Shown one piece after another: positions 1 through 19,951 of a DNA stretch of 24,916 nt (its first letter is position 1; every line of letters begins with the position of its first letter). Origin of the DNA: a virus. The notes under the pieces were generated by a model. It made no database searches. It saw nothing but the letters and a program-made list of their open reading frames with translations, and had not been told where the DNA came from. Position numbers and translations under genes: made by a program. The DNA lies in IMG/VR virus record IMGVR_UViG_3300010392_000050, positions 1 to 24,916 of that record, one strand, 5' to 3'.

Positions 1-669
1 ACCACAGTAGAGCCACTGGAGTTCAACATCTCCAGTATCACTCTGGACAACAATGAAGTATATGCCTCTATGTCAATAGACTACACCACAAACACAGGCA
101 CGCGCACAGTAGGCGATGTGATGTTTGGGTATCTGGCGGATTCTGGTAAGTACTCCAACCACGACGGCTACGCCGCCATAATAGTTGACAATGGCAGTGC
201 GGTTTCCTTTAACACTGGTATAGACTACGCCGTAGCCGCAGGTGAAGTAATGTACTTCATTAATCCGTTCCAGAGTATTCGTTTTGAGAACTGTAGCTTT
301 GGGCAGTGGACAGCCGCTGAGGACACAGGTAACGCCCTGTTTCGCAACAACGAGTTCTACTTCAAGGGCTGTAAGTTCGGCAACTACGTAAGCGAAGCCT
401 CCGGCTTGGCACGCATAACAAACCTACAGAGCACTCAGACCATTACGCACGGTCTCCCCTGCCGCCCTCGTAAGTTCAACATCGTTAGTACGGACAGCGA
501 CTTGTTGGTAAGCACTACGTATGGTAGTGCTATAGGAGCAGGCGATAGCGCAGATGCGCGTCGACACTTAATGCAAATGACATCCTACGCAAGCTTACTC
601 ACGGTGTTGTTCACCCGTGACGGGTCCGGTCCGACGACCGCACCGATGCACTGGTACGCCGAGATATAA
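1..669 (+). CDS. Tail fibre/virion structural protein, C-terminal part (5' truncated)
   Basis: The reading frame is open from the first base, so this is the last 222 residues of a longer gene whose start lies outside the window. The visible part is rich in beta-forming residues. Its last ~90 residues carry the pattern THGL-x-C-R-P followed by alternating hydrophobic strands and a closing F-T-R-D-G-S-G...H-W-Y-A-E, which resembles the small beta-sandwich modules that end many phage tail and virion fibre proteins (family resemblance by eye). The middle (F-E-N-C-S-F, F-K-G-C-K-F-G) reads like rungs of a beta-helix. The terminase follows at once. A role in the tail fibre or spike that contacts the host surface is inferred; another virion surface protein is possible. 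Confidence 0.6.
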   Translation, partial: TTVEPLEFNISSITLDNNEVYASMSIDYTTNTGTRTVGDVMFGYLADSGKYSNHDGYAAIIVDNGSAVSFNTGIDYAVAAGEVMYFINPFQSIRFENCSFGQWTAAEDTGNALFRNNEFYFKGCKFGNYVSEASGLARITNLQSTQTITHGLPCRPRKFNIVSTDSDLLVSTTYGSAIGAGDSADARRHLMQMTSYASLLTVLFTRDGSGPTTAPMHWYAEI

Positions 670-5073: not shown

Positions 5074-6066
5074 ATGTCTATCACCACTGGTGTTACAGGC
5101 ACACATCTGCACCGTGCTAATCTGTGGTCCTCTGAACTGAAGGAAGCGCTTCGGGACGAACTCAATGGTCAGGGCTATGTGCGCTGGCTTACTGATTTCC
5201 CTGAAGGCGACCAGTTAAACATCCCGTCTATCGGTGATGCGACTGTTCGAGATTACGTCGAAAATGACCCTGCGGTCTACGACTCTCTCGACACTGGTAA
5301 CTTCCAGTTTGGTATCACAGAGTACAAGCAGAGTGGTCTGTACATTACTGAAAAAGCACGTCAGGACTCTTACTACGCTTCACAGTTGGAAGCTAGTTTT
5401 GTGCCCAAGCAGAACCGCGCTCTTGCCGAGAATATCGAAACCGATATCTTCGGTCTCGCAGCCCCTGCTGGCGACGCACAGAACAAAGCTTACAATGGAG
5501 TAGGTCAGACTGGCAACGACGCTAATACTATCAACGGCGCAGCTCACCGTTTCGCAGCGGGTCTTGATGGTACTACTGGTTTGATTGAAGTGGCGGACTT
5601 TGCGAAAGCATTGAACTCACTCAAGAGAGCTAACGTACCTGATACCAACCTAATTGCAATCGTTGACCCGTCAGTTGAGTATGTATTCAATACGCTGTCA
5701 AGCTTCACCAACTTTACCAACACTCCTCGTTGGGAAGGTCTGGTAGCTGAAGGTGGCATTAGCTCAGGTATGCGCTTTACGAAGAACATTTATGGCTTCG
5801 ACGTCTACGTTTCGAACTACCTCCCGTCTAGCACGGGCGAGTTCACAGTACCTAACGGTGTCTCTAACATCTTCTTCTCAGCAGCTTCGCCGGATATCGT
5901 ACCGTTCATTGGTGCGTGGCGACAGATGCCTAAAGTGGATTCTGAGTACAACAAAGACTTCCAGCGTGAAGAATACATTACTACGGCTCGTTACGGTCTT
6001 TCACTGTATCGTCCTGAGAATCTGGTAACTATCATTTCTGATACTAACCAGATTACTTACTCATAA
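5074..6066 (+). CDS. Major capsid protein
   Basis: 330 aa, the size expected for an HK97-fold capsid subunit of a podovirus, directly after the scaffold gene. The N-terminus (L-W-S-S-E-L-K-E-A-L-R-D-E-L near residue 16) and the segment around D-F-P-E-G-D-Q-L-N-I-P (residues 41-51) match the N-arm/E-loop style of this capsid group. The C-terminal part (T-A-R-Y-G-L-S-L-Y-R-P-E-N-L-V) reads like the end of the A/P domains. It has its own GGAG ribosome site at 5063-5066, seven bases before the ATG, in a 13-base gap. Codons are noticeably restricted to common ones (GGT, CGT, AAC), which fits high expression. This should be the most abundant virion protein. Confidence 0.92.
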   Translation: MSITTGVTGTHLHRANLWSSELKEALRDELNGQGYVRWLTDFPEGDQLNIPSIGDATVRDYVENDPAVYDSLDTGNFQFGITEYKQSGLYITEKARQDSYYASQLEASFVPKQNRALAENIETDIFGLAAPAGDAQNKAYNGVGQTGNDANTINGAAHRFAAGLDGTTGLIEVADFAKALNSLKRANVPDTNLIAIVDPSVEYVFNTLSSFTNFTNTPRWEGLVAEGGISSGMRFTKNIYGFDVYVSNYLPSSTGEFTVPNGVSNIFFSAASPDIVPFIGAWRQMPKVDSEYNKDFQREEYITTARYGLSLYRPENLVTIISDTNQITYS

Positions 6067-6079: not shown

Positions 6080-6625
6080 ATGAGTCGTGAAACAGTATGG
6101 CATAACGAAGATGGACTCGCTGTGGGTTTCGGTACTCGTTCAGCTCAGACGAGCACTGGTGGCGCTACCGTCACTGCTGGTCGTACTCAGGAAATCGTAT
6201 ATACGTACGACGACCTGACTGCGCTGGGTACTGACGCTACGGCAGATTCTGGCATCTATGCTGCTGGCAAATGGGTTAACTCACCACAGATTCCTGCTGG
6301 TGCAACTGTACAGAAAGTAACTATTACTACTGATACCGCTGCAACTTCAGGTGGTGCTGCTGACCTGCTCATTGGTATCTACACCATTTCAGACACGGAT
6401 GGTCTGTTGGATGCTGTAGACGCTGATGGTCTCGCCGCTGCTGGTGACTCTGCTTTGGCAGATTTCTCAGCTGTAGGTGAAACGGTAGTTCTGGATAAGT
6501 CAGCTGCTGCTGCTTACATTGGTAAAGTCAACGTGGGTTCTAGCCCTGTAGTTGTCGCGCCAACGTACGCAACTGCTGCTTATACAGCTGGTGCTTTGAC
6601 TGTAACAGTCGAGTACACTAAGTAA
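6080..6625 (+). CDS. Probable capsid decoration or minor head protein
   Basis: A 181-aa protein of Ala, Gly, Thr, Asp and Val with no Cys and few Lys/Arg, apparently all beta-structure. The N-terminus S-R-E-T-V-W-H-N-E-D-G-L-A-V-G-F-G-T-R is a pattern I associate with small structural proteins encoded just after podovirus capsid genes. It sits between the capsid gene and the terminator-like hairpin, with a perfect ribosome site, so it should be made at capsid-like levels. Repeated T-A-D-S-G/T-S-G-G-A turns and a closing L-T-V-T-V-E-Y-T strand fit a beta-sandwich that binds the capsid surface. The decoration role is inferred; a head-completion or fibre-anchor role is possible. Confidence 0.65.
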   Translation: MSRETVWHNEDGLAVGFGTRSAQTSTGGATVTAGRTQEIVYTYDDLTALGTDATADSGIYAAGKWVNSPQIPAGATVQKVTITTDTAATSGGAADLLIGIYTISDTDGLLDAVDADGLAAAGDSALADFSAVGETVVLDKSAAAAYIGKVNVGSSPVVVAPTYATAAYTAGALTVTVEYTK

Positions 6626-6628
6626 GTC

Positions 6629-6659
6629 AAGAGGGAGGGGCTTCGGCTCCTCCCATCTT
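6629..6659 (+). terminator. Rho-independent-type terminator with UUCG tetraloop
   Basis: A nine-pair GC-rich stem (6633-6641 with 6646-6654, one G-U pair) closes on a C(UUCG)G tetraloop, among the most stable RNA loops known. It is extended by four more pairs (6629-6632 with 6656-6659) across a single bulged A at 6655. The downstream tract is short (TCTTT then AA), so termination may be partial. It fills the only sizeable gap in the rightward operon, after the capsid and decoration genes. That is where T7 has its late terminator after gene 10, so it probably lowers transcription of the tail genes relative to capsid. Confidence 0.75.
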
Positions 6660-6672
6660 TAAGGAAAGGTTT

Positions 6673-8304
6673 GTGGATTCTAAGCAAAGAACATTAAGGC
6701 AATGGGGATTCGGTGGCTCTATACAGGATATGGAGGCTGAGTTCTACGCATCCGAAGGTTACGTAGGTGGCGGTCTAGCTGACCGACGCAGGGCTTTCCT
6801 TAGCGATAAAGGGTACTTAGACTTTGGAGTATACGCCAAGTCTCTTGGTTTCGTTAGTGAAGAAGAGTACTGGCGAGACAAGGTACGTCGGAAGAACACC
6901 GACGAAGAATACTGGATTATGGGTGACTCACAGAGTACTGAAGGTTTCCAGAGCCTCAGTAATAACTGGTACGACACATTCGGAGACAGTGTCAAGAATG
7001 TCTACGCACAAGGTGCTAAAGGTCTAAAGGACTTTGTAGGTGGCACACTGGACGCTCCGTTGAACGGTCTGACCCACCAAGACTTTATTAACGACAACGG
7101 CACACGCACGTTGTTGATGTACATAGGTACTAATGATTTAAACAACGCTGGTTTCCCGTGCACGACAGAGGCACAGGTAAACACAGCAGTGTCAACCCTC
7201 ACAGCAAACATAGACACAGTAGTAGCGGATTGTCGCACCGCTGGTATGAAGGTAGTTATCAGTAAGCTAATGCCTTTCAAGGGCTTCTGGTTCTGGGACT
7301 ACGTACCTACTGAAGCTTGGATTATAACAGGCTGGCAGAACGTTAACGCACATATTGAAAGCTTACGAGCTGATGATGTTATAGTAGTAGACCCACTAGC
7401 TCTCACAGTAGTGGCAGACTATCAAGTAGACCAGCGCCTTGTAGCGAATGATGAACTACACTGGAACGACAGAGGTCGTTACCTGTTTGGTACACACATG
7501 CGTAGAGGTGCAGCTAAGCTTGAGCACTGGAACTCTAACGCTAAGACAGCACTAGGAAACTACTCAGCCCTCACTGAGGTAGAGCAGGATGCTATGGGTG
7601 CTTTCATTGTAGACCTAGATGATACGTACTCCTCAGTACGAGAAGCCTATGTGTTCGGTCTCACCGACGATGGTGACCAGTACGAGGGTATCAAGGGTAA
7701 CACAGCCACAACTAGTGGTACTGTAACTAACCAAGGAACAGACGGTATCTCTCACGATACCGCCGCTAGCTACACAGACCTGACAGTCATACCGCAAGGT
7801 AGTGGTGGAGCAGGAGACGATGAACTCTCGTTCGGGGTATACAACACGGCAGTCCCTGATGTAGACGTTGGCGAGACAGTGTACGTAGCTGGCGTATACC
7901 AAGCATTCGCAGGGTTCACGGACAGCATCCTACTCTGGAATGAGCACGCCTCTCTGGGAGAGCGTATGCAATGGGCAGTTACTGGTACAACGGTTACTCC
8001 TGCATTAGAGCCATACGTCTCCGATAAAAGCTGGTTACTAAATGAGTACATCCAGTTGACCCGTACCTCAACAGGTACTACGGTGACCCGAAAGATTAAC
8101 GAACACACGGAGACAGGTTCTACCCCAACTGGTAGCGCTCCATCACACAGCCAGTTCCTCAATGCACGTAATGGTACGGCAGTGAGTAATAGTAGCGTAG
8201 CTGGATTACAGGTGTTCTTCTACATTACTGGGTACAGTGACCTCGACTACGACGTAGTAAGAGAAGCGGTACGAAAACTAAAACGGAGATTAGACAATGG
8301 CTAA
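6673..8304 (+). CDS. Virion-associated SGNH/GDSL-type hydrolase with C-terminal beta domain
   Basis: A 543-aa protein from a GTG start preceded by AAGGAAAGG. Residues 1-78 are a helical linker (A-D-R-R-R-A-F-L-S-D-K-G-Y style) seen near fibre or anchor domains. Residues 80-270 contain the SGNH esterase blocks: G84-D85-S86 (nucleophile Ser86), G152-T153-N154-D155 (Gly/Asn oxyanion block), and D260-E-L-H263-W-N (catalytic Asp/His). Residues ~310-540 look like a concanavalin/LamG-type beta-sandwich ending in a short basic helix. Such enzymes remove acetyl or other acyl groups from carbohydrates. Placement between capsid and head-tail adaptor suggests a virion fibre or spike enzyme that trims surface polysaccharide. 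The catalytic blocks are seen; substrate and virion location are inferred. Its 3' end overlaps the next gene by 8 bp. Confidence 0.8.
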   Translation: MDSKQRTLRQWGFGGSIQDMEAEFYASEGYVGGGLADRRRAFLSDKGYLDFGVYAKSLGFVSEEEYWRDKVRRKNTDEEYWIMGDSQSTEGFQSLSNNWYDTFGDSVKNVYAQGAKGLKDFVGGTLDAPLNGLTHQDFINDNGTRTLLMYIGTNDLNNAGFPCTTEAQVNTAVSTLTANIDTVVADCRTAGMKVVISKLMPFKGFWFWDYVPTEAWIITGWQNVNAHIESLRADDVIVVDPLALTVVADYQVDQRLVANDELHWNDRGRYLFGTHMRRGAAKLEHWNSNAKTALGNYSALTEVEQDAMGAFIVDLDDTYSSVREAYVFGLTDDGDQYEGIKGNTATTSGTVTNQGTDGISHDTAASYTDLTVIPQGSGGAGDDELSFGVYNTAVPDVDVGETVYVAGVYQAFAGFTDSILLWNEHASLGERMQWAVTGTTVTPALEPYVSDKSWLLNEYIQLTRTSTGTTVTRKINEHTETGSTPTGSAPSHSQFLNARNGTAVSNSSVAGLQVFFYITGYSDLDYDVVREAVRKLKRRLDNG

Positions 8305-9109
8305 GACTCTACTGAAAATGACTCAGGACATTCTGAGCGACATTGATGGAGACGAAGTAAACAGCATTGATGATACTATCGAAAGCCAACAGATTTCACG
8401 AGCTATTGTGGACATGTTCGACTTCATAGTATCAGACCAAGAGCTGCCCTCCATCAAGCAGACCTTCCAACTCGAAGCGTATGGGGACACGGATAAGCCT
8501 ACACACTTCGACATTCCCGCAGACGTTAACACCATAGACGTGTTACGTTACAATACTGCGGACGATGGGGAGAGGGAAACCTTCGTCAAGGTGTACTACC
8601 TTGAGCCAGTGGATTTCCTGCGGCAGACTAAGAACCGTAATGTTCTGGACACCAATGTCATCTCAGTAGAGGTAGAAGACAACGTCACCGTGAACATACG
8701 TAACGATGTCAGCCCTACGTACTGGACGACGTTCGATAACGAGACGATTATCTTCGACTCCTTTGACGAGAACATCAGCTCAACCATGACAGCTTCCAAT
8801 ACCGAAGCGTATGGTCAGCGTCCTCCCACGCTCTCGCGTGTAGACGGTGCGTTCATTAACCTCCCCAATAACTTACTCCCGTACCTCCAAGCAGAGGTAC
8901 GGGAGTACGCCTTTGACGTATGGAGAGGCGGAGCTACACCAAAGATTCAGCAGCTTGCTCGTAAGGGTAGGGTGCGTCAACAGCGGTCGCGTGACAAACT
9001 GCGCCGCAACGTTAAACTTCCGAACTACGGACGTAAGTCGATAGGCGGAATAACTGTAGGTAGTGTGGATAGCGGATACGCTAAACCTCTACCTGACCAT
9101 CTCAAGTAG
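8297..9109 (+). CDS. Head-tail adaptor / tail tubular protein A-like
   Basis: A 270-aa protein. The N-terminus L-L-K-M-T-Q-D-I-L-S-D-I-D-G-D-E-V-N-S-I-D-D-T is a pattern shared by podovirus adaptor (T7 gp11-like) proteins, and the rest alternates beta segments with a helical, very basic C-terminal region (R-K-G-R-V-R-Q-Q-R-S-R-D-K-L-R-R, residues ~223-238). It should form the ring joining portal to nozzle. It starts at an ATG inside the last codons of the SGNH gene with CGGAG upstream, and is followed after two small steps by the nozzle gene, as gp11 precedes gp12 in T7. The gene contains an unusual perfect inverted repeat at 8874-8907, listed separately. Confidence 0.8.
   Translation: MAKTLLKMTQDILSDIDGDEVNSIDDTIESQQISRAIVDMFDFIVSDQELPSIKQTFQLEAYGDTDKPTHFDIPADVNTIDVLRYNTADDGERETFVKVYYLEPVDFLRQTKNRNVLDTNVISVEVEDNVTVNIRNDVSPTYWTTFDNETIIFDSFDENISSTMTASNTEAYGQRPPTLSRVDGAFINLPNNLLPYLQAEVREYAFDVWRGGATPKIQQLARKGRVRQQRSRDKLRRNVKLPNYGRKSIGGITVGSVDSGYAKPLPDHLK
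8874..8907 (+). repeat. Perfect 14-bp inverted repeat (hairpin) inside adaptor gene
   Basis: Arms TACTCCCGTACCTC (8874-8887) and GAGGTACGGGAGTA (8894-8907) are exact reverse complements with a 6-base loop CAAGCA. The arms encode part of L-P-Y-L-Q-A-E-V-R-E-Y. No T-run follows, so it does not look like an intrinsic terminator. It is far longer than other hairpins in the coding regions of this window. Confidence 0.85.
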
Positions 9110-9462: not shown

Positions 9463-12029
9463 TGCCACAGATACCCGTCGATAAAACGTTCTTCACCTTC
9501 AGTAAGGGATTCCTCACCGAGGTATCTCCACTTAACTTCCCAGATGAAGTAAGTCTTGAGGAGGAGAACTTTGAATTACTGCCCGATGGGAGTCGGCGCA
9601 GACGACGTGGTATTGCCGTAGAAACTGACACAATAGCCATCTCCCTACAAGACGAACTTGAGGGAGATGAAGCTATGCAAGCTTTTGTATGGAAGCACGT
9701 AGACTTAGATTCCCAACAGAACTTTGTCTTGATACAAGTGGGACTTTACGTGTACGTGTACGAAGAGAACGAGGTACTTGGTGGTAACTACACCGGAGAG
9801 ATTATCAATCTAGCCGACTCAGTTACTACCACAGCCGCTGAAGCGCGGACTGTACCTATCTCGTTTACCAGTGGGCGAGGACATCTGTTCATCGCCAGTA
9901 CAGACCTAGAGCCTAGCTACGTAACGTATGACGCTAACGCAGCTACGAAGTTCGAAGTAAACCAGATTGGAATTAAGGTACGGGATTACGTAGACATTGA
10001 CGATGGTGTCGACCTACTCGATACACCATCCGATGACCCTGACAACGCAAACAAACCTACGCCATCACATCACTACAATCTAGCCAATAGAGGCTGGGCA
10101 GTAAGTGGTTACGATGGCACAGCTGGTTCAATCCCCAGTAACCCGAAGGGTTCTAACGGAGTGGACTACCGACACAACAACGGGGTATGGGCTAGCAAAG
10201 CCATGTTGCCGTGGGTTGGTTGGAGACGTAGTACTGTAGAGGATTCTAACTGGTACTCGCTCAGTAGTTCAAGCAAGGTATGGGATAGCTCCCGTTTCGA
10301 TGAAGAGATTTTAGCATATGTACCAGCACCAAATGGTTCGCTTATCATTAACCCGTTTGATACCAGAACGGCAATCGCTCCGCTTGATGGAGACAGTTAT
10401 GTGCTACCTAATGTATATAACAGCAACTTCTATCCGACAGGTTTGGGAACAAGCACCCTCACCTTTCGGCTTGACCTTGGTACGACCCACACACTAAACG
10501 TAGGGGACACTATTGAGATAGGTCCGTCTAGTTCTAACTTGATTACCTACTTAAATCACGACGGTAACAAAGCATCCATTGAAGCGTTAGGTGGAGACTT
10601 GAGCGTATTATTTCGCAAACATATACGGATTATGTGGCGGCTCTATCCTAAACACGTGGTCACTAACGTAGGTAGTAGCTGGATTGAATGGGAGCTTCCC
10701 GCAGCGTGGGGAGTACACGCTACGTCTCTGTATGATAACACTTGGAATAAACCAGCCACTGTAACGAACAGTGTACTAGATAATCCAGAGGGAGAGGTAA
10801 CTACTAAGAGACCATCCTGCTGCGAATACTACGCAGGTAGGATTGTGTTCGGTGGTTTGAATACCTCTCGTTGGTCGGATGTAATCTTCTTCAGTAAGAT
10901 TATATACGACGATAACGACTACGAAGCCATGCTGCAAATGGCAGACCCTACTCATCCAGTACTGAACGAGCTGCTGCCAGATGATGGTGGTACTATTCAG
11001 ATACCGGGATTAGGTACAGCCATTGAGATGGTAACCTTCCAAGGTAGTCTGCTAGTATTCGGCAACACAGGCGTATGGGAAATATCAGGCTCACAGGCTT
11101 TCGCTGCCGATGACATAATCGTGAGAAAGATAACTGAAGCGGAAGCTATTAATAAGCAGGGTATCATGAAGACAGATGACGTTGTGATATTCGCGTCACA
11201 CCGTGGTATCTACGCAATTGGAGGAGACGGACAGACTGGTCGGGTACAAGCACAGAACATAACCGAACCTACTATCCAGAAATACTGGAACGACCTCGGC
11301 ACAGAAGCCAGAGCTAACTGTCAGATGGCATACGATGATAGCCTACGTAGGGTACACATCTTGGTCAACGAGTCTAATGATGACTCCAAGTACTACTACG
11401 ACGCAGTACTGACGTTCGACCAGAGATTAGGAGCGTTCTACAGGTACACTTTCAACAAGGCATCTGATAACTATATCGGAGCTTTCGTCGCGCTATCAGT
11501 AGCGGATGACCCGTCTACCTACCAGAAGGTTAAGTACTTTAACGTGGTCAACAATAGGCAGCTACGCATAGCTGACCAATCGGTCTACGCTTTCACTGAC
11601 TACGACTCAAGTGAGAAAGTACCGTACCTGATTACAGGTTACGATAACCTAGGAGACTGGTCTCGTAAACGATACGCACCAGTAATCCACACGTACATGG
11701 AACGTACCGAAGAGGCATGGGAAGATGACGGCTCTGGTAACCTAGTAGTAGACAACCCTAGCTCGTGCACTATGCAAGCACGGTGGGATTGGACAGACTC
11801 AAGTAACGCCAACAAGTTTGGTACAGCACAGCAGGTATACAAGCACAGGCGCGTGTATACACCTACGCAAGCAGGAGACGCGTTTGACAATGGAGAACCT
11901 GTGGTAGTTGTGCGGTCTAAGGTACGAGGACGCGGACGCGCTCTAAACCTTAAGTTCACAGGCGAAGAGGGCAAGGACTGCCATCTCTTAGGTTGGGCAA
12001 TACATTACGAAGGAGACAATAAAGTCTAA
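9462..12029 (+). CDS. Tail nozzle / tail tubular protein B-like
   Basis: 855 aa, close to the usual size of podovirus nozzle proteins (T7 gp12 is 794 aa). The N-terminus T-F-S-K-G-F-L-T-E-V-S-P-L-N-F-P followed by N-F-E-L-L-P-D-G-S-R-R-R-R-R-G is a signature stretch of this family as I know it. The remainder is beta-rich, with blade-like segments such as R-I-V-F-G-G-L-N-T-S-R-W-S-D-V-I-F-F-S and G-S-L-L-V-F-G-N-T-G-V-W-E-I, in keeping with the propeller-type nozzle. It forms the distal tail tube to which fibres attach and through which DNA exits. The ATG overlaps the upstream stop by one base. Confidence 0.9.
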   Translation: MPQIPVDKTFFTFSKGFLTEVSPLNFPDEVSLEEENFELLPDGSRRRRRGIAVETDTIAISLQDELEGDEAMQAFVWKHVDLDSQQNFVLIQVGLYVYVYEENEVLGGNYTGEIINLADSVTTTAAEARTVPISFTSGRGHLFIASTDLEPSYVTYDANAATKFEVNQIGIKVRDYVDIDDGVDLLDTPSDDPDNANKPTPSHHYNLANRGWAVSGYDGTAGSIPSNPKGSNGVDYRHNNGVWASKAMLPWVGWRRSTVEDSNWYSLSSSSKVWDSSRFDEEILAYVPAPNGSLIINPFDTRTAIAPLDGDSYVLPNVYNSNFYPTGLGTSTLTFRLDLGTTHTLNVGDTIEIGPSSSNLITYLNHDGNKASIEALGGDLSVLFRKHIRIMWRLYPKHVVTNVGSSWIEWELPAAWGVHATSLYDNTWNKPATVTNSVLDNPEGEVTTKRPSCCEYYAGRIVFGGLNTSRWSDVIFFSKIIYDDNDYEAMLQMADPTHPVLNELLPDDGGTIQIPGLGTAIEMVTFQGSLLVFGNTGVWEISGSQAFAADDIIVRKITEAEAINKQGIMKTDDVVIFASHRGIYAIGGDGQTGRVQAQNITEPTIQKYWNDLGTEARANCQMAYDDSLRRVHILVNESNDDSKYYYDAVLTFDQRLGAFYRYTFNKASDNYIGAFVALSVADDPSTYQKVKYFNVVNNRQLRIADQSVYAFTDYDSSEKVPYLITGYDNLGDWSRKRYAPVIHTYMERTEEAWEDDGSGNLVVDNPSSCTMQARWDWTDSSNANKFGTAQQVYKHRRVYTPTQAGDAFDNGEPVVVVRSKVRGRGRALNLKFTGEEGKDCHLLGWAIHYEGDNKV

Positions 12030-12841
12030 TGGCACTAAGTCATGTAAGAGCAGCTAGACGAGCATCGGCAGCCGCAGCTGAACTCCGTCGTATCAATACC
12101 TATATGGAACGTCGTAAGCGTATCCGTACAGGTCTGCGTGCGCAAGGTGAACTGGGAGCTATCTATCCACACACAGGTGTAGGTACAGATAAGTCTTCAG
12201 CACCCACAGCACAGATAGGTAGTGTAAGGACACAGTTAGCAGACGCTACCAACATAGGTAACCGTCAGGAAGAACTAACGGAACAGATGCAGGAAGACTT
12301 GAAGTCGGCTCGTCGTGGTGGAGCAATATTCCAAGGCGTAGTTATTGCAGCTACTATTATCGCAACCATCCTTACCGCAGGCGCGGGTACAGGTCCGGTA
12401 GCCAGTGCTGGTGGCGGTGGTAGTACCGCAGCTACAGGTGCTACGGGCGCAGTAGGTGCTACGGGTGGGGCAGCTACTGGTGCTAGTATCACTACTACTG
12501 GTGTAGGCGTAGGTGGTTCAGCTGGACAAGGTTTGGCTATCGCCCAAGGTATCTCAGCATCTACTATAAGTAGCTCTACTTCCGTAGGTTTCTGGGGAAG
12601 TATAGGCGCAGCAGCTAGTAAGCTAACTAGTATAGCCCAGCCTATAGCTACTAACGTAGGTATAGCCAAGAGTGCCTTGGGAGTGTTTGACACTAACGTA
12701 GACCAGATGGTAGCGACAGCAAGTATCTCTGCTCCGCAACCCTCACAGTCAGTACGAGCTAGTGAGTTCGCGTCTGCTCGTAAACAGACAGGCAGATACG
12801 CTGGTATACCACGCGTTAATGACGGAGCGTTTAATGGATAA
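12029..12841 (+). CDS. Internal virion (ejection) protein, small (gp14-like position)
   Basis: A 270-aa protein directly after the nozzle. It has a strongly basic, Ala-rich helical N-terminus (residues 1-38), a charged helix (~65-97), a hydrophobic segment AIFQGVVIAATIIATILTAG (99-118), then a Gly/Ala/Thr/Ser-rich low-complexity stretch that includes four Gly-X-Y-type triplets at 137-148. Size, amphipathic plus membrane-seeking character and order match the smallest of the T7 core proteins, which enters the outer membrane during genome ejection. That match is by position and character, not sequence identity. It begins on a TAATG overlap with the nozzle stop. Confidence 0.75.
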   Translation: MALSHVRAARRASAAAAELRRINTYMERRKRIRTGLRAQGELGAIYPHTGVGTDKSSAPTAQIGSVRTQLADATNIGNRQEELTEQMQEDLKSARRGGAIFQGVVIAATIIATILTAGAGTGPVASAGGGGSTAATGATGAVGATGGAATGASITTTGVGVGGSAGQGLAIAQGISASTISSSTSVGFWGSIGAAASKLTSIAQPIATNVGIAKSALGVFDTNVDQMVATASISAPQPSQSVRASEFASARKQTGRYAGIPRVNDGAFNG

Positions 12842-15800: not shown

Positions 15801-17777
15801 TATATCCGTGTACAAGAAGGTAACATGGACAACGCACCTAAGTGGTTCAGACGACAGGCTGTAGCCGCAGCAGAGTTCGTACACGAAACCATGCACGGTG
15901 TCAAAGGATTCAACAGACCTAGCACATGGTTGTTCCGTAACGCACACAAGGCTGCTCCGATTGAGACAGCCAAGCAGTTGGCGTTCATCGACTTCATTGT
16001 CACACGTCCTGTACGTCAGGTAGCTCTACAGGCATCTCAGCACTTGTTTGTGCAGAGCATAGCTCCTGAGTACATCGGTCGTATGCAACGTGATATGGTG
16101 CTCCTGCTCGAAGGAGCGAAGCGCACCTCCTTGGCACAAGCCTATGGTAAGGATGTTGGAGACTTCCTTGTCAAGCGTAACGCAACTATGATGGGATTGA
16201 CCGAAGAAGAGTACCTTACACTGGTACACCAGTTCGAGATAAGTGGTAACCTTCAGTCAGTAAACATGCACAGTCTCGCAGGAGACCTACCTAAAGCTAC
16301 CACTGTCACACCACTGTCAAAGGCTGGTGACGTAGCACAGACAGCGTGGCGTACAGCTACAGCTGCGCCTGTGCGTGAGGGTATGCAACGGTATGGCTTC
16401 GACCTTGGTGAGCAGTTGAACCTTAGTGGTTCGTACATGCTGGCTATACATGAGTTTAAGAAGTCTACTGGTAAGACTATCGGACAGTTCACTAAGGATG
16501 ACTGGAAAGCTATCTCCATTCAGGGTAACAACTACGCCCTGTCTATGAACCGCGCTAACTCACCTAAGTGGCAGACTGGCATCTTCAGTCTCCCCCTACA
16601 GTTTATGTCCTTTACGCAGAAGACTCTGCTCACAGGTATACGTGGCATGGGTAAGACTGGTGCTAAGTACGGTAACAAAGCAGTTACCACACTAGAGGCT
16701 CGTAAGATTCTAGCTGGACAGATGCTACTGTTTGGCGGAGCAGGCTTTGGTCTTAAGGACTGGGCATCAGAGTACGCCTACCAAGCCATGGAAGCAGCTG
16801 GTCTGGTAGACCATCCGCAGGCACAGATGGTAGGAGAGCTACTGGCTAGTGGTATGCTAGACATGAGCCTCGATATGATGCTCACACTTGCTACTAGTGA
16901 TGACACTGACTTAGCGTGGGACGAGTACCTAGCCCCCGGTGGTAACATACTACAGACAGCACAGGATTACTGGGATGCTGCATGGGGACAACCTATACTT
17001 GAGACAGCTATGGGTGCTTCTGGCGCTACTACATCCCGTATCTTGCAGGGTGTACAGCTAGCCCACACCATTATGAACTACGAGGTGGAGGGTAGGACAG
17101 ACGCACAGCGTCTATCACACGTCAAGGACGAACTCTTAGCTGGTGCGTTCAGTGGATACAGTGATTACTACAAGGCTAAGCTAGCTTACAAGACTGGACA
17201 TTGGATTGACCGTAGCGGTAACAAGTCCGCGTGGACTCCCACTATGACGGAAATCCTAGCTAAGGGTATTGCTGGTCTTAATAGTGAGCGCTATCTTACC
17301 GAGTATAAGATACGAGATGAGGGACGAGAGTACCAAGCAGCTCTCAAGCATGACGCTACCACTATGTGGAAAGAGATGCAGCGCGTCGCTATAGGAGCAG
17401 CTGATGGTGAGATTACGTCGGATGATATGATAGCTAAGATTAACTACATAGCAGACGGCTACAAGGATGTGTTCGACGAAGAGGAGTGGATGTACGTCCT
17501 TGAAATCTTCCAAGAGTTAGAACATCGTAACCAAGATGGGCGTAGAGACAGTGTGGGTGAGTACATAGTACGAGCCTTCGGCACTAATCTGTCAACACCA
17601 GACAGTATCGTGTCTCGACTCCCCTCTGTTGTACCAGAGGACGAGCGAGCCGAACTACTGGAGTTACTACGAGCTGTCGATGAGCAGATTAAAGCAGAAG
17701 CTAAGAGTACCTACGACCTGACAGTACGTGGTATGATTGAAACAGAAGAGAATCTTAAGAGACTTGAGGAGCAGTAA
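12834..17777 (+). CDS. Giant internal virion / DNA-ejection protein (gp16-like C-terminus)
   Basis: The preferred start is ATG 12834, which overlaps the previous stop by 8 bp and has GGAG at 12824-12827. The frame is open to 12762, but that start is deep inside the upstream gene. The product is 1647 aa. The N-terminus is Pro/Glu-rich and acidic. No transglycosylase motif is evident, unlike T7 gp16. The C-terminal third resembles T7-type core protein D, with N-Y-A-L-S-M-N-R-A-N-S-P-K-W-Q and I-F-S-L-P-L-Q-F-M-S-F (~1235-1260), then a hydrophobic Gly-rich stretch M-L-L-F-G-G-A-G-F-G-L (~1295-1310). It should be stored in the capsid and injected to build the trans-envelope channel. The function is inferred from family, size and position. 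Confidence 0.8.
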   Translation: MDNDNKPVIEVPVAEPTYPEQGILTPEPTPAVPESAAEDMAVQAATIADEPFNKDYLKQQTQEFLDTGESKVTASYEMLYYSDATTKLYIDKVKDKAAELGVAPVTVAQVFGSQFSNEAEQEALASKVNPQAHLYFQKLLDDMNHPDFVDGETMAMRREMKRNSRTTAEFIDMQRDEIVKEAQAELARYSDEEGFEDKVSETIGGLLVELIPGYNFVRTRKFVDTVSEDGIPLISLSGGMMEELRAQTKDAYNNDPDKFLTIMRNIRNFAGDQSMIDTDFGTQYLFGRILTDKTLNGQVEDSTWLWSMEEGVIDVIINNAIDVLDATFLTSIVGRLGRAATASAAFGATWRHGMGASHKAANAYNKSHLNDQLLLTWENPTWQGGKSSPSPHDIAGANTPHWGRYAEVKDDIPDVTSLTAAESARVQHLRSQVAEIVENTEGAALTGRDKQYAVRQLELDIQNVWGGRARPGRSSLIPHDDGNGVKIQVMIGGDTVNGMTERAALELAEQYTVDGTGVRIYNVEFGKMRPYSTGREAMSDLEKLRSGKATENPGEYYVELAYDYYFRPDDKLLFGDYPVLSPAGLGRAGRHLLTPSAQFSPEVYSPFVANVLSEQALSSSLDRIVTPLFQMSRDVRRNVGEIYDWTYTKSIEQNGKPVSISQIRERFPDVTADELHGYSLLREFYRTLYDVQNQRLYKDYASRGYKTLTNNEGTVQIHGEPLKREYFKTHSRGGTVSVYDPVSGSTRKLKTKDINTIYNAGGSIIRTDLPISAGDKAYHKLVLFDNEVDAFRIRPLNQNPLKRYEGYYPRMYEDHYYINRTVRNATLDGQPHTQTHTVRIAGTKKEAEEFVRRMNAKYPDQEWSWSDGARFSTKDRIAKDLEAMQVEGRLFFDDRQNAPLMNINGTPADIVDPVNMVQRSSRMVSRQVAVEDLVKSMKNAFGTQYGHLLEKPLDQVPASQVHEQLKHQMLEGETDTIRKQASDALNLWDYIRVQEGNMDNAPKWFRRQAVAAAEFVHETMHGVKGFNRPSTWLFRNAHKAAPIETAKQLAFIDFIVTRPVRQVALQASQHLFVQSIAPEYIGRMQRDMVLLLEGAKRTSLAQAYGKDVGDFLVKRNATMMGLTEEEYLTLVHQFEISGNLQSVNMHSLAGDLPKATTVTPLSKAGDVAQTAWRTATAAPVREGMQRYGFDLGEQLNLSGSYMLAIHEFKKSTGKTIGQFTKDDWKAISIQGNNYALSMNRANSPKWQTGIFSLPLQFMSFTQKTLLTGIRGMGKTGAKYGNKAVTTLEARKILAGQMLLFGGAGFGLKDWASEYAYQAMEAAGLVDHPQAQMVGELLASGMLDMSLDMMLTLATSDDTDLAWDEYLAPGGNILQTAQDYWDAAWGQPILETAMGASGATTSRILQGVQLAHTIMNYEVEGRTDAQRLSHVKDELLAGAFSGYSDYYKAKLAYKTGHWIDRSGNKSAWTPTMTEILAKGIAGLNSERYLTEYKIRDEGREYQAALKHDATTMWKEMQRVAIGAADGEITSDDMIAKINYIADGYKDVFDEEEWMYVLEIFQELEHRNQDGRRDSVGEYIVRAFGTNLSTPDSIVSRLPSVVPEDERAELLELLRAVDEQIKAEAKSTYDLTVRGMIETEENLKRLEEQ

Positions 17778-19951
17778 TGCCTAAGACACCAACATTAAGT
17801 GACCCGCAGACTCAAGGTGTATCCAGTGTTGAGACACAGGACGGCACTGCTATGAGTCTGGACACTGCTATCTTTACCGCTAAGAACGCTATGGATATCG
17901 GTGGTAAAATAGCCACAGCTAACCGCAAGAGGCAGGGCAACAAACTACAAGGAGAGGTACTCGACTCTCTCATTAACCTAGAGAACCAAGCATCCGCAGA
18001 CTTCGACGCCTACGAGGGTGGTGGAGCGTATGCAAGTTACATGAGTAAAGCTGGTATAACAGCTGAAGACTTTACAGCAGCCAGTGATGCAGAGAAACGG
18101 TACTTTGTAGAGAATGCTAAGTTAGAGGCAAGGGCAGACCAAGGGGTACTGCCAGCACAACGCTTTGAGATTGAGAAGGAGAAGCTACTCCGCTCGTACA
18201 TACGAGCTAATCCAGCCTACTCCAACGAGATACTCAGTATCTACGGAGCTTTCAATAAGTCAAGCGCTGTAAGTACCATCCTTAACACCAAGCAAGCCTT
18301 GGTGCAAGCACAGGATGCCGAGAAGAAAGAGCTGTACAAGAAGCAGCGGGAGCTAGGTGCAGAGCTAGGCGTAGACCTAGACGGTGAACTGTGGATGAAT
18401 GACAGGGATGAGTTTTATCGGCAGCTTACTCCCAAGGTAGACGCACGAGAACGTACCATAGAACTGCAACGTATGACTGAGAGACGTGACGCACAGGGTG
18501 CGTACACGGCTTCACAGGCTCGTGAGTACGCGAATGAGAACATGGGCAACGCTGTTATTGAGGCAGAGACCCACATTAACAGCATCCTACGTGACCAGTT
18601 TGGTATAGTAGACCTAGACAAAGCCTCCGACCTAGACCCAGCAGAGCTGGATAGGTTGAAGCTGACCCTACAGTCAGGCTTAGTAGCCTTCCTCAGAGAC
18701 CAGAGAGAGGTGTTCCGCACCACTGGTTCTCAATCAGGGTTCGATGGTGCATCTGGAGCGCACTATATCTCAGATGAAGAGTGGGCTAAGATGTACGAGC
18801 CTGTTGCACAGCTGTACACGGTAGCTCAAGAGCTAGTAGGAACGGATAAAGCAGCCGGAACACTGAAGAACGTAGTCAATATCTCCAAAGACAAGGCTCT
18901 AGCTAGAGTACCTAACGTAGGTACGGTACTAGCAGCCGCTGATATAGCAGGTAGGATGGGTAAATCCCTTGCTGGTACACGTACTGGTGTAGTGACTGAC
19001 GCTTACCTAGCCAACGCTACGGTAACCCTGCTAGAAGTTAGCCAAACTAGCGACAATGGTGGGGATTCAGGTGGTGATTCACCTCCCGCTGTGTCCTCAT
19101 GGAGCGAAGCAGTTGGTGAGCACTCATATTCTGAGTACACCAAGAAAGGTGGCGGTCTATCCCGTGATGCGTTCATGGAAAACGCAGCTGTTAAGACACT
19201 AGACACCGCATACGACCTCATCACAGCTCCCGAAGGCGTTATCCCAGAGGATAAGGTAGATAAGTACGCTAAGAATAGCGTATCCCTACTGTTCAAGGAC
19301 TACTACGACAAGGCACAACGTGGTGAGAAGCTACAATCTCGTGAAGTTACCGATGGATTGCTGCGTGTAGCGGCAGCTCCAGCTTTCTTCGACATCTGGA
19401 GTAAGATGTCACCGGAAGACCAGACCGTACACGGTGAAGTAGCACGAGAGGCTATCAATTACCACTGGAATTACATGATGAAAGAAGAAGCAGGCTTCTA
19501 TGAAGGTGTGCTTCTGAAGGATTTGGTAACTACGTTCCCACATCATGGTAACAGACCGTCAGTACCTAGCGACCCTATGGGTAGGTGGGCGCATCAGACT
19601 GTAACCAACCAGATAGATGCCCATACTTTCGTAGATAACGCTGGCAACCCACTACGAGCAGGGGATATGCTCACAGTTATCCGTACTGGAGACTCCAACG
19701 ACAACCTACAAGTACAGTGGGCTATCCGTGAGGATGCGTTTAGTGGCGCTACCTTTGATAAGCAGAACTCTCAGGCAAGACAACAGCTGGAACTGATGGT
19801 AGCCAAGCTAAACACTCGCATGTCACCACGAATGACGCAGTTAGTCAAGGCTAACGCGCACTTCAATCCCGACTACAATGTCAACGGGAAGCCTAACTAC
19901 GACGCTTCCTTAACTTTACTTTCAAGTAGCCTACTCTCAGGGATTCGTTAA
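17777..19951 (+). CDS. Internal virion protein (gp15-like)
   Basis: A 724-aa, mostly helical, Ala/Asp/Lys-rich protein with no signal peptide. It lies between the giant core protein and the muralytic virion protein. Its size is close to T7 gp15 (747 aa). Helical repeats dominate residues 30-330. A hydrophobic Gly-rich patch lies near V-G-T-V-L-A-A-A-D-I-A-G, and a short Gly/Asp/Ser linker (D-N-G-G-D-S-G-G-D-S) near residues 421-432 separates a second domain that contains D-I-W-S-K-M-S-P-E-D-Q. It probably forms part of the internal core that is ejected with DNA. Both ends are coupled to neighbours by TAATG overlaps. The identity is from context and size, not a diagnostic motif. Confidence 0.72.
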   Translation: MPKTPTLSDPQTQGVSSVETQDGTAMSLDTAIFTAKNAMDIGGKIATANRKRQGNKLQGEVLDSLINLENQASADFDAYEGGGAYASYMSKAGITAEDFTAASDAEKRYFVENAKLEARADQGVLPAQRFEIEKEKLLRSYIRANPAYSNEILSIYGAFNKSSAVSTILNTKQALVQAQDAEKKELYKKQRELGAELGVDLDGELWMNDRDEFYRQLTPKVDARERTIELQRMTERRDAQGAYTASQAREYANENMGNAVIEAETHINSILRDQFGIVDLDKASDLDPAELDRLKLTLQSGLVAFLRDQREVFRTTGSQSGFDGASGAHYISDEEWAKMYEPVAQLYTVAQELVGTDKAAGTLKNVVNISKDKALARVPNVGTVLAAADIAGRMGKSLAGTRTGVVTDAYLANATVTLLEVSQTSDNGGDSGGDSPPAVSSWSEAVGEHSYSEYTKKGGGLSRDAFMENAAVKTLDTAYDLITAPEGVIPEDKVDKYAKNSVSLLFKDYYDKAQRGEKLQSREVTDGLLRVAAAPAFFDIWSKMSPEDQTVHGEVAREAINYHWNYMMKEEAGFYEGVLLKDLVTTFPHHGNRPSVPSDPMGRWAHQTVTNQIDAHTFVDNAGNPLRAGDMLTVIRTGDSNDNLQVQWAIREDAFSGATFDKQNSQARQQLELMVAKLNTRMSPRMTQLVKANAHFNPDYNVNGKPNYDASLTLLSSSLLSGIR

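Follow-up and report, generated by a model that had tools for sequence, protein, structure and literature searches.

A predicted SGNH esterase encoded between the capsid and tail genes of a Zobellviridae-like podovirus

Why would a podovirus encode an SGNH hydrolase next to its capsid genes? SGNH enzymes are well known on phage tails, and most of the known phage examples are tailspikes. The window analyzed here (24,916 nt; IMG/VR virus record IMGVR_UViG_3300010392_000050) contains a gene for such a protein at positions 6673..8304. All window features described below lie on the plus strand. The SGNH gene is located between the genes for the major capsid protein (MCP; 5074..6066, phrog_267) and a 181-aa decoration-type protein (6080..6625) on one side and a tail protein or head-tail adaptor of the tubular-A type (8297..9109, phrog_7592) on the other. 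This is the placement given in the original prediction. The 181-aa protein had no family match and is named for its position downstream of the MCP, where many relatives have a gene for a protein of 150-200 aa. We asked what the SGNH protein is likely to do and where on the particle it might sit.

The window is a fragment that is 99.96% identical over its full length to part of a 48,543-bp IMG/VR contig of the same virus. This longer contig is nearly complete and has a 127-nt repeat near its ends. The two contigs differ at nine sites in 24.9 kb, and seven of the differences are nonsynonymous in the frames listed; one, at window position 7738, causes a T356A change in the C-terminal region of the SGNH protein. 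Judged from gene content and order, the phage is a Zobellviridae-like podovirus. Its MCP is 54-57% identical to those of roseophage SIO1 and Lentibacter ICBM1, and its adaptor aligns with those of cobaviruses at 33-37% identity. The portal, scaffold, tubular A/B, and internal virion proteins follow the Zobellviridae order, and the terminase agrees in synteny and homology. Two large ORFs in the internal-virion-protein region (17777-19951 and 12029-12841) gave no significant PHROG or Pfam match. The phage also has a tailspike of its own just upstream of terL. The window opens with the C-terminal part (199 aa; 1..669) of this beta-helix protein, which has a full length of 750 aa in the 48.5 kb contig and matches the phrog_17587 tail-fibre N-terminus and phrog_4775 (pre-neck appendage). 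In the Zobellviridae phage Klyazma, a beta-helix tail protein (orf001) is likewise encoded ahead of terL (PMC9960094). Because a separate beta-helix tailspike is present, the SGNH protein represents an extra gene and not a missing tailspike.

The SGNH gene codes for 543 aa from a GTG start, and its product consists of an N-terminal tandem-motif region, an SGNH domain (residues 76-291; 6898..7545), and a C-terminal beta-rich region. Three catalytic blocks had been predicted to be intact, and each was found as described: Block I GDS with the nucleophile Ser86 (residues 84-86; 6922..6930), Block III GTND (residues 152-155; 7126..7137), and Block V D260-E-L-H263 (7450..7461). We identified a fourth, the oxyanion glycine of Block II, at Gly114. 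The four blocks occur in order, and all align with invariant columns of bacterial SGNH hydrolases. A regular expression for the ordered blocks was matched by 5 of 20,000 shuffles of the protein, and the SGNH ORF was its sole match among the 15 long open frames in the window. The surroundings of Block I carry one substitution, GDSQ in place of GDSL or GDSI. PF13472 (Lipase_GDSL_2) matched the protein with E=3.1e-6 (28.3 bits) and, in a sweep of relatives, with E=1e-8 (30.2 bits). Both bit scores fall under the curated Pfam cut-off of 32.9, which is a database threshold and not a structural feature, and both E-values are still significant. Matches were also obtained to PF00657 (E=0.0019), to PDB sequences of SGNH hydrolases (E about 4e-5), and to a Streptomyces SGNH/GDSL protein (residues 83-268, E=3e-5).

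For structural comparisons, we used an AF2 model of the SGNH domain alone, built from a five-sequence alignment (pLDDT 58), and left the full-length model (pLDDT 40.6) out of the fold search. The first PDB match in Foldseek was the carbohydrate esterase PbeAcXE (E=1.3e-5), and the top matches comprised PbeAcXE, CspAcXE, and other SGNH esterases. VIA-align placed the domain model at Z about 13 over 170-180 residues of SGNH esterases; the best alignment, to an SGNH-fold chain, reached Z 13.2 with an rmsd of 3.3 over 171 aa for a model whose pLDDT is only 58. The closest solved relatives are the bacterial SGNH esterases PbeAcXE (7tog/7toh) and CspAcXE (7toj) and a polyvinyl-alcohol esterase (9kr0/9kqz). 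They match by sequence with E about 2e-4 to 4e-5 and are among the best by fold (Z 12-13), with only about 17-18% identity in structure-based alignments. These are free bacterial enzymes with a different overall architecture. The sequence and model comparisons thus lend good support to an SGNH domain of the carbohydrate-esterase type. As a whole, the protein is an orphan beyond its own virus. We found no close relatives of the entire protein among 50,697 phage records, none in IMG/VR except in the same virus, and none in genome contigs by direct query. No signal peptide was apparent by eye.

The regions flanking the SGNH domain were less readily classified. A ConA/LamG-like fold had been proposed for the C-terminal region (residues 292-543; 7546..8301). 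None of the sequence libraries bore this out, as the region had no match in Pfam, PHROGs, or PDB sequences. Strands were predicted at low confidence for residues 300-543 in the full-length model (pLDDT 41). The N-terminal region carries a tandem motif (residues 6-43, TLRQWGFGGSIQDMEAEFYASEGYVGGGLADRRRAFL; 6688..6801) that is a putative module for virion attachment or oligomerisation. A survey of 8,868 open frames at 181 loci located the tandem form only in the SGNH protein and in a 98-aa ORF of G093 (locus L173). Because members of this set were used to build the motif expression and profile, these counts are descriptive. The SGNH protein joins the set through a shuffle-tested alignment alone: its local alignment to the 98-aa ORF scored 56, and the best of 2,000 shuffles scored 51. 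The motif also starts ORF51 of T5S1, a large spike-like protein whose gene immediately precedes that of the endolysin, and gp42 of RIO-1, which is encoded between two tubular-B genes and looks lectin-like by eye. Independent support comes from tblastn matches (E 1e-3 to 5e-3) that connect the proteins of G093, T5S1, and RIO-1 with each other. Two further N-terminal matches, to the head protease of phage phiAP1 (E=0.3) and the minor tail protein of PSA-2T (E=6), were taken as chance.

The tandem motif is therefore common to the SGNH protein and three other Zobellviridae loci (G093, T5S1, and RIO-1), which supports the view that it is an interchangeable module on glycan-facing structural proteins. 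It lies in the region called anchor-like in the original prediction. The motif does not discriminate between head and tail. In G093, the 98-aa ORF lies directly upstream of a 589-aa SGNH spike-type protein (together L173:429-2496), just downstream of a terS-like ORF (L173 8-424). This SGNH tailspike (L173:727-2496) belongs to the same virus group as our protein. It differs in having another N-terminal domain and in occupying the tailspike locus before terL, not the capsid slot.

We next consider what related phages encode between their capsid or decoration genes and tubular A. Profiles of the MCP and the adaptor served to retrieve relatives, and the comparison covered 113 loci that contain both genes and differ in their MCPs. 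The slot usually contains a short protein with an LHEPKG N-terminus, and a decoration-type gene (150-200 aa) may be present or absent. Elsewhere it holds small ORFs with a head-fibre-like end, proteins with a tail-fibre N-terminus (phrog_17587; loci L066 and L061), or other inserts, or it is empty, as in two of the nearest relatives by MCP (L011 and L012, 64%). The C-terminus of the slot protein gp46 from CW02 matches the phi29 head fibre (3qc7, 6qvk) and a Schitoviridae decoration protein (9d82), and PA11 gp042 matches the PHROG annotated "head fiber". The CW02 matches suggest that one head-fibre motif is common to several podovirus families. In CW02 gp46 (L006:8655-8996) the matching part is the C-terminal 38 aa, and short slot ORFs of L013, L018, L021, and L022 end similarly. 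The slot protein of Vibrio phage 1.015.O (L005:10242-11501) joins an LHEPKG N-terminus to a long C-terminal region that looks beta-helix-like by eye and has a tail-fibre PHROG match at its end. Given this fibre-like C-terminus, LHEPKG may serve to attach slot fibres in general; its profile had no match in the PDB. On the strength of these gene contents, the position is a capsid-proximal fibre slot in the relatives. The claim that the SGNH gene does not lie with tail fibres is accordingly half right: the phage's own tailspike is upstream of terL, but relatives hold fibre-type genes in this same slot.

The SGNH protein is an unusual occupant of the slot. No other sampled relative among the 113 loci has an SGNH gene there. 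A PF13472 sweep of about 100 relative records detected the domain in this virus and G093 only; many of these records are fragmentary, which leaves absence unproven for individual genomes. The LHEPKG proteins (ICBM1 gp44, CRP-4 gp45, and PA11 gp041) occupy the same slot without an SGNH domain, and the SGNH protein is without LHEPKG. Similarly, the head-fibre-like slot proteins (CW02 gp46 and PA11 gp042) have no SGNH domain, and the C-terminus of the SGNH protein gave no PHROG or PDB match to the head-fibre motif of the phi29/CW02 gp46 type.

One little-noticed parallel for a capsid-proximal SGNH position is already known, in the T7-like Pseudomonas phages Phi-S1 and P421. A fold search of viral models with the SGNH domain returned the "minor capsid protein" of Phi-S1. 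This protein, gp35, is encoded between the MCP and tail tube A and combines a Big_2 Ig part related to T3/T7 10B with a PF13472 domain that scores above the cut-off; at least 80% of it is present in 27 phage records. Proteins of this type (Phi-S1 gp35, the vB_PpuP group, and P421 gp37) resemble our SGNH protein in coming from podoviruses, in their position between MCP and tail tube A, and in having a further C-terminal region after the SGNH domain. They differ in their 10B-related Big_2 Ig N-terminus, for which the SGNH protein has no Pfam match, and in the lack of an intervening decoration gene. We detected no sequence similarity between the SGNH protein and the Phi-S1-type protein (BLASTP E=3), so the common position looks convergent or very old. 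In Phi-S1 (L184:7358-8773), the Ig+SGNH ORF shares the reading frame of the MCP and stays open from the first base past the MCP stop codon, so readthrough of that codon would produce an MCP-Ig-SGNH fusion. The arrangement differs in P421, where the SGNH frame overlaps the end of the MCP gene in another frame.

The T7-like phages also provide a natural deletion experiment. P421 carries an SGNH minor capsid protein that was reported as its only substantial gene difference from P413, and it infected 13 Psg strains compared with 10 for P413 (PMC9003214). We checked the genomes and found the P421 gp37 gene between MCP and tail tube A. The genes of P421 and P413 (L185 and L186) are otherwise nearly identical, and in P413 the SGNH minor capsid gene is reduced to a remnant of about 34 aa. 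The Ig+SGNH type is thus absent from a close relative, as the SGNH gene described here is from sampled relatives. The published pair points to a host-range determinant on the head side. Should the enzyme be borne on the head or neck, the tail would not be the only place where phages process surface polysaccharide, and a host-range model based on tail fibres alone would miss a determinant. A search for enzymes encoded between MCP and tail tube A would be worthwhile across podoviruses. We also raise, with more doubt than conviction, the idea that two unrelated podovirus families independently placed an SGNH deacetylase on the capsid or neck and not the tail, with the tandem motif serving for attachment in Zobellviridae and an Ig domain of the 10B type doing so in T7-like phages. 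On approach, acetyl groups of the host polysaccharide would be stripped at the head surface, and the tailspike would cut or bind.

What the SGNH protein does can be judged from precedent. SGNH receptor-binding proteins of other phages are active esterases (PMC13123978), and podophage tailspikes with esterase activity have been described (PMC11654681). Receptor-binding esterases or deacetylases such as G7C gp63.1, the Moo19/B2 tailspikes, Klebsiella prophage fibres, and Pectobacterium Studiervirinae spikes display SGNH or esterase chemistry on a structural protein, likely for deacetylation of host polysaccharide. They are attached to the tail and encoded at tailspike loci, whereas the SGNH gene here is capsid-proximal and its product has another N-terminus. 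Decoration proteins or head fibres can also bind cells (PMC7602432). The explanation we favor, at about even chances of being correct, is that the SGNH protein is a low-copy, virion-associated acetyl-esterase in a variable fibre slot that acts with a separate tailspike. The tandem motif would attach the protein to the particle. The SGNH domain would strip acyl groups from host capsule or LPS; both fold and precedent make O-acetyl groups the most likely target. The C-terminal region may bind glycan or trimerise, and the enzyme would work beside the beta-helix tailspike encoded just upstream of terL.

Association of the protein with the virion is likely from its genomic context, and attachment to the head or neck is plausible. 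We slightly favor the head or neck over the tail because of the slot homology and the T7-like parallel; the tail-type relatives of the N-terminal motif argue the other way. The proposal of a capsid or collar enzyme that de-acylates polysaccharide is therefore partly supported, by the esterase-type domain and by a slot where relatives encode head-fibre proteins, but the slot also accepts tail-fibre N-termini and the motif occurs on a spike-like protein. Other observations count against our favored explanation as well. The protein lacks both motifs of the usual slot occupants, LHEPKG at the N-terminus and the head-fibre type at the C-terminus; its own N-terminal motif is common mainly to proteins that may be tail-associated, and it is an orphan with a PF13472 score below the cut-off and a domain model of pLDDT 58.

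The strongest competitor, a serious one that we regard as less likely than not, is that the SGNH protein is a second tailspike or receptor-binding protein. It would sit on tubular A, tubular B, or the main spike and perform the same deacetylase chemistry, and its capsid-adjacent position would reflect operon mosaicism. The slot proteins of L066 and L061 with their tail-fibre N-termini fit this explanation, as do the motif on T5S1 ORF51, on RIO-1 gp42 between the tubular-B halves, and on the 98-aa ORF before the G093 SGNH spike, and the predominance of tailspikes among known phage SGNH enzymes. Against it, a beta-helix tailspike already occupies the canonical locus, the SGNH gene is in a capsid-proximal slot where head-fibre proteins occur, and neither residues 1-75 nor the whole protein gave a PHROG match to the tail-attachment N-terminus of T7 gp17-type fibres (phrog_17587).

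An esterase outside the virion is improbable. Such a moron-type enzyme would act inside the cell or after release, for example in superinfection exclusion or in progeny release via a change in host polysaccharide. The absence of the gene from sampled relatives is compatible with this role, and the moron/auxiliary class of PHROGs includes some SGNH proteins, among them phrog_6102, which is matched by Phi-S1 gp35. However, the gene resides within the morphogenesis operon and overlaps the downstream adaptor gene by 8 nt, its N-terminal motif is common to structural-module proteins, and the protein has no signal peptide apparent by eye. We consider it very unlikely that the domain is a catalytically dead glycan-binding module: the weak family scores below the Pfam cut-off and the change to GDSQ would suit such a module, but all residues of the catalytic blocks are intact, including the DxxH pair.

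The sequence around the start of the SGNH gene bears on its expression. The GTG start is preceded by AAGGAAAGG, with a strong SD-like sequence upstream. A stable hairpin with a cUUCGg loop (6629..6659; -21.5 kcal/mol, z -2.7), an element of the attenuator or processing type, separates the decoration and SGNH genes. Two features would suit a recoded decoration-SGNH fusion displayed on the capsid in the manner of T7 10B: relative to the decoration gene, the SGNH frame is shifted by -1 and has no stop as far back as the decoration stop codon, and the hairpin starts about 6 nt after the last sense codon. We rejected this least credible explanation because there is no slippery heptamer (ACT AAG TAA). 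In addition, a shift one codon earlier would run into a -1-frame TAA at 6619-6621, relatives without any slot gene keep the hairpin, the SGNH gene has its own SD-like sequence and GTG start, and an open frame beyond the decoration stop is seen in only 2 of 57 slot genes. A comparable hairpin (below -15 kcal/mol) follows the decoration gene in 61 of 67 relatives, versus 21% of control windows. Of 46 loci that have no decoration gene, 38 show it upstream of an LHEPKG gene; this count is the best of several scanned windows and has no matched control. The conserved hairpin after the decoration gene resembles the T7 terminator after gene 10. We infer that it marks a border between high-copy capsid genes and slot and tail genes that would be expressed at lower copy. 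The location of the SGNH gene 3' of this conserved post-capsid hairpin is consistent with a low copy number for its product.
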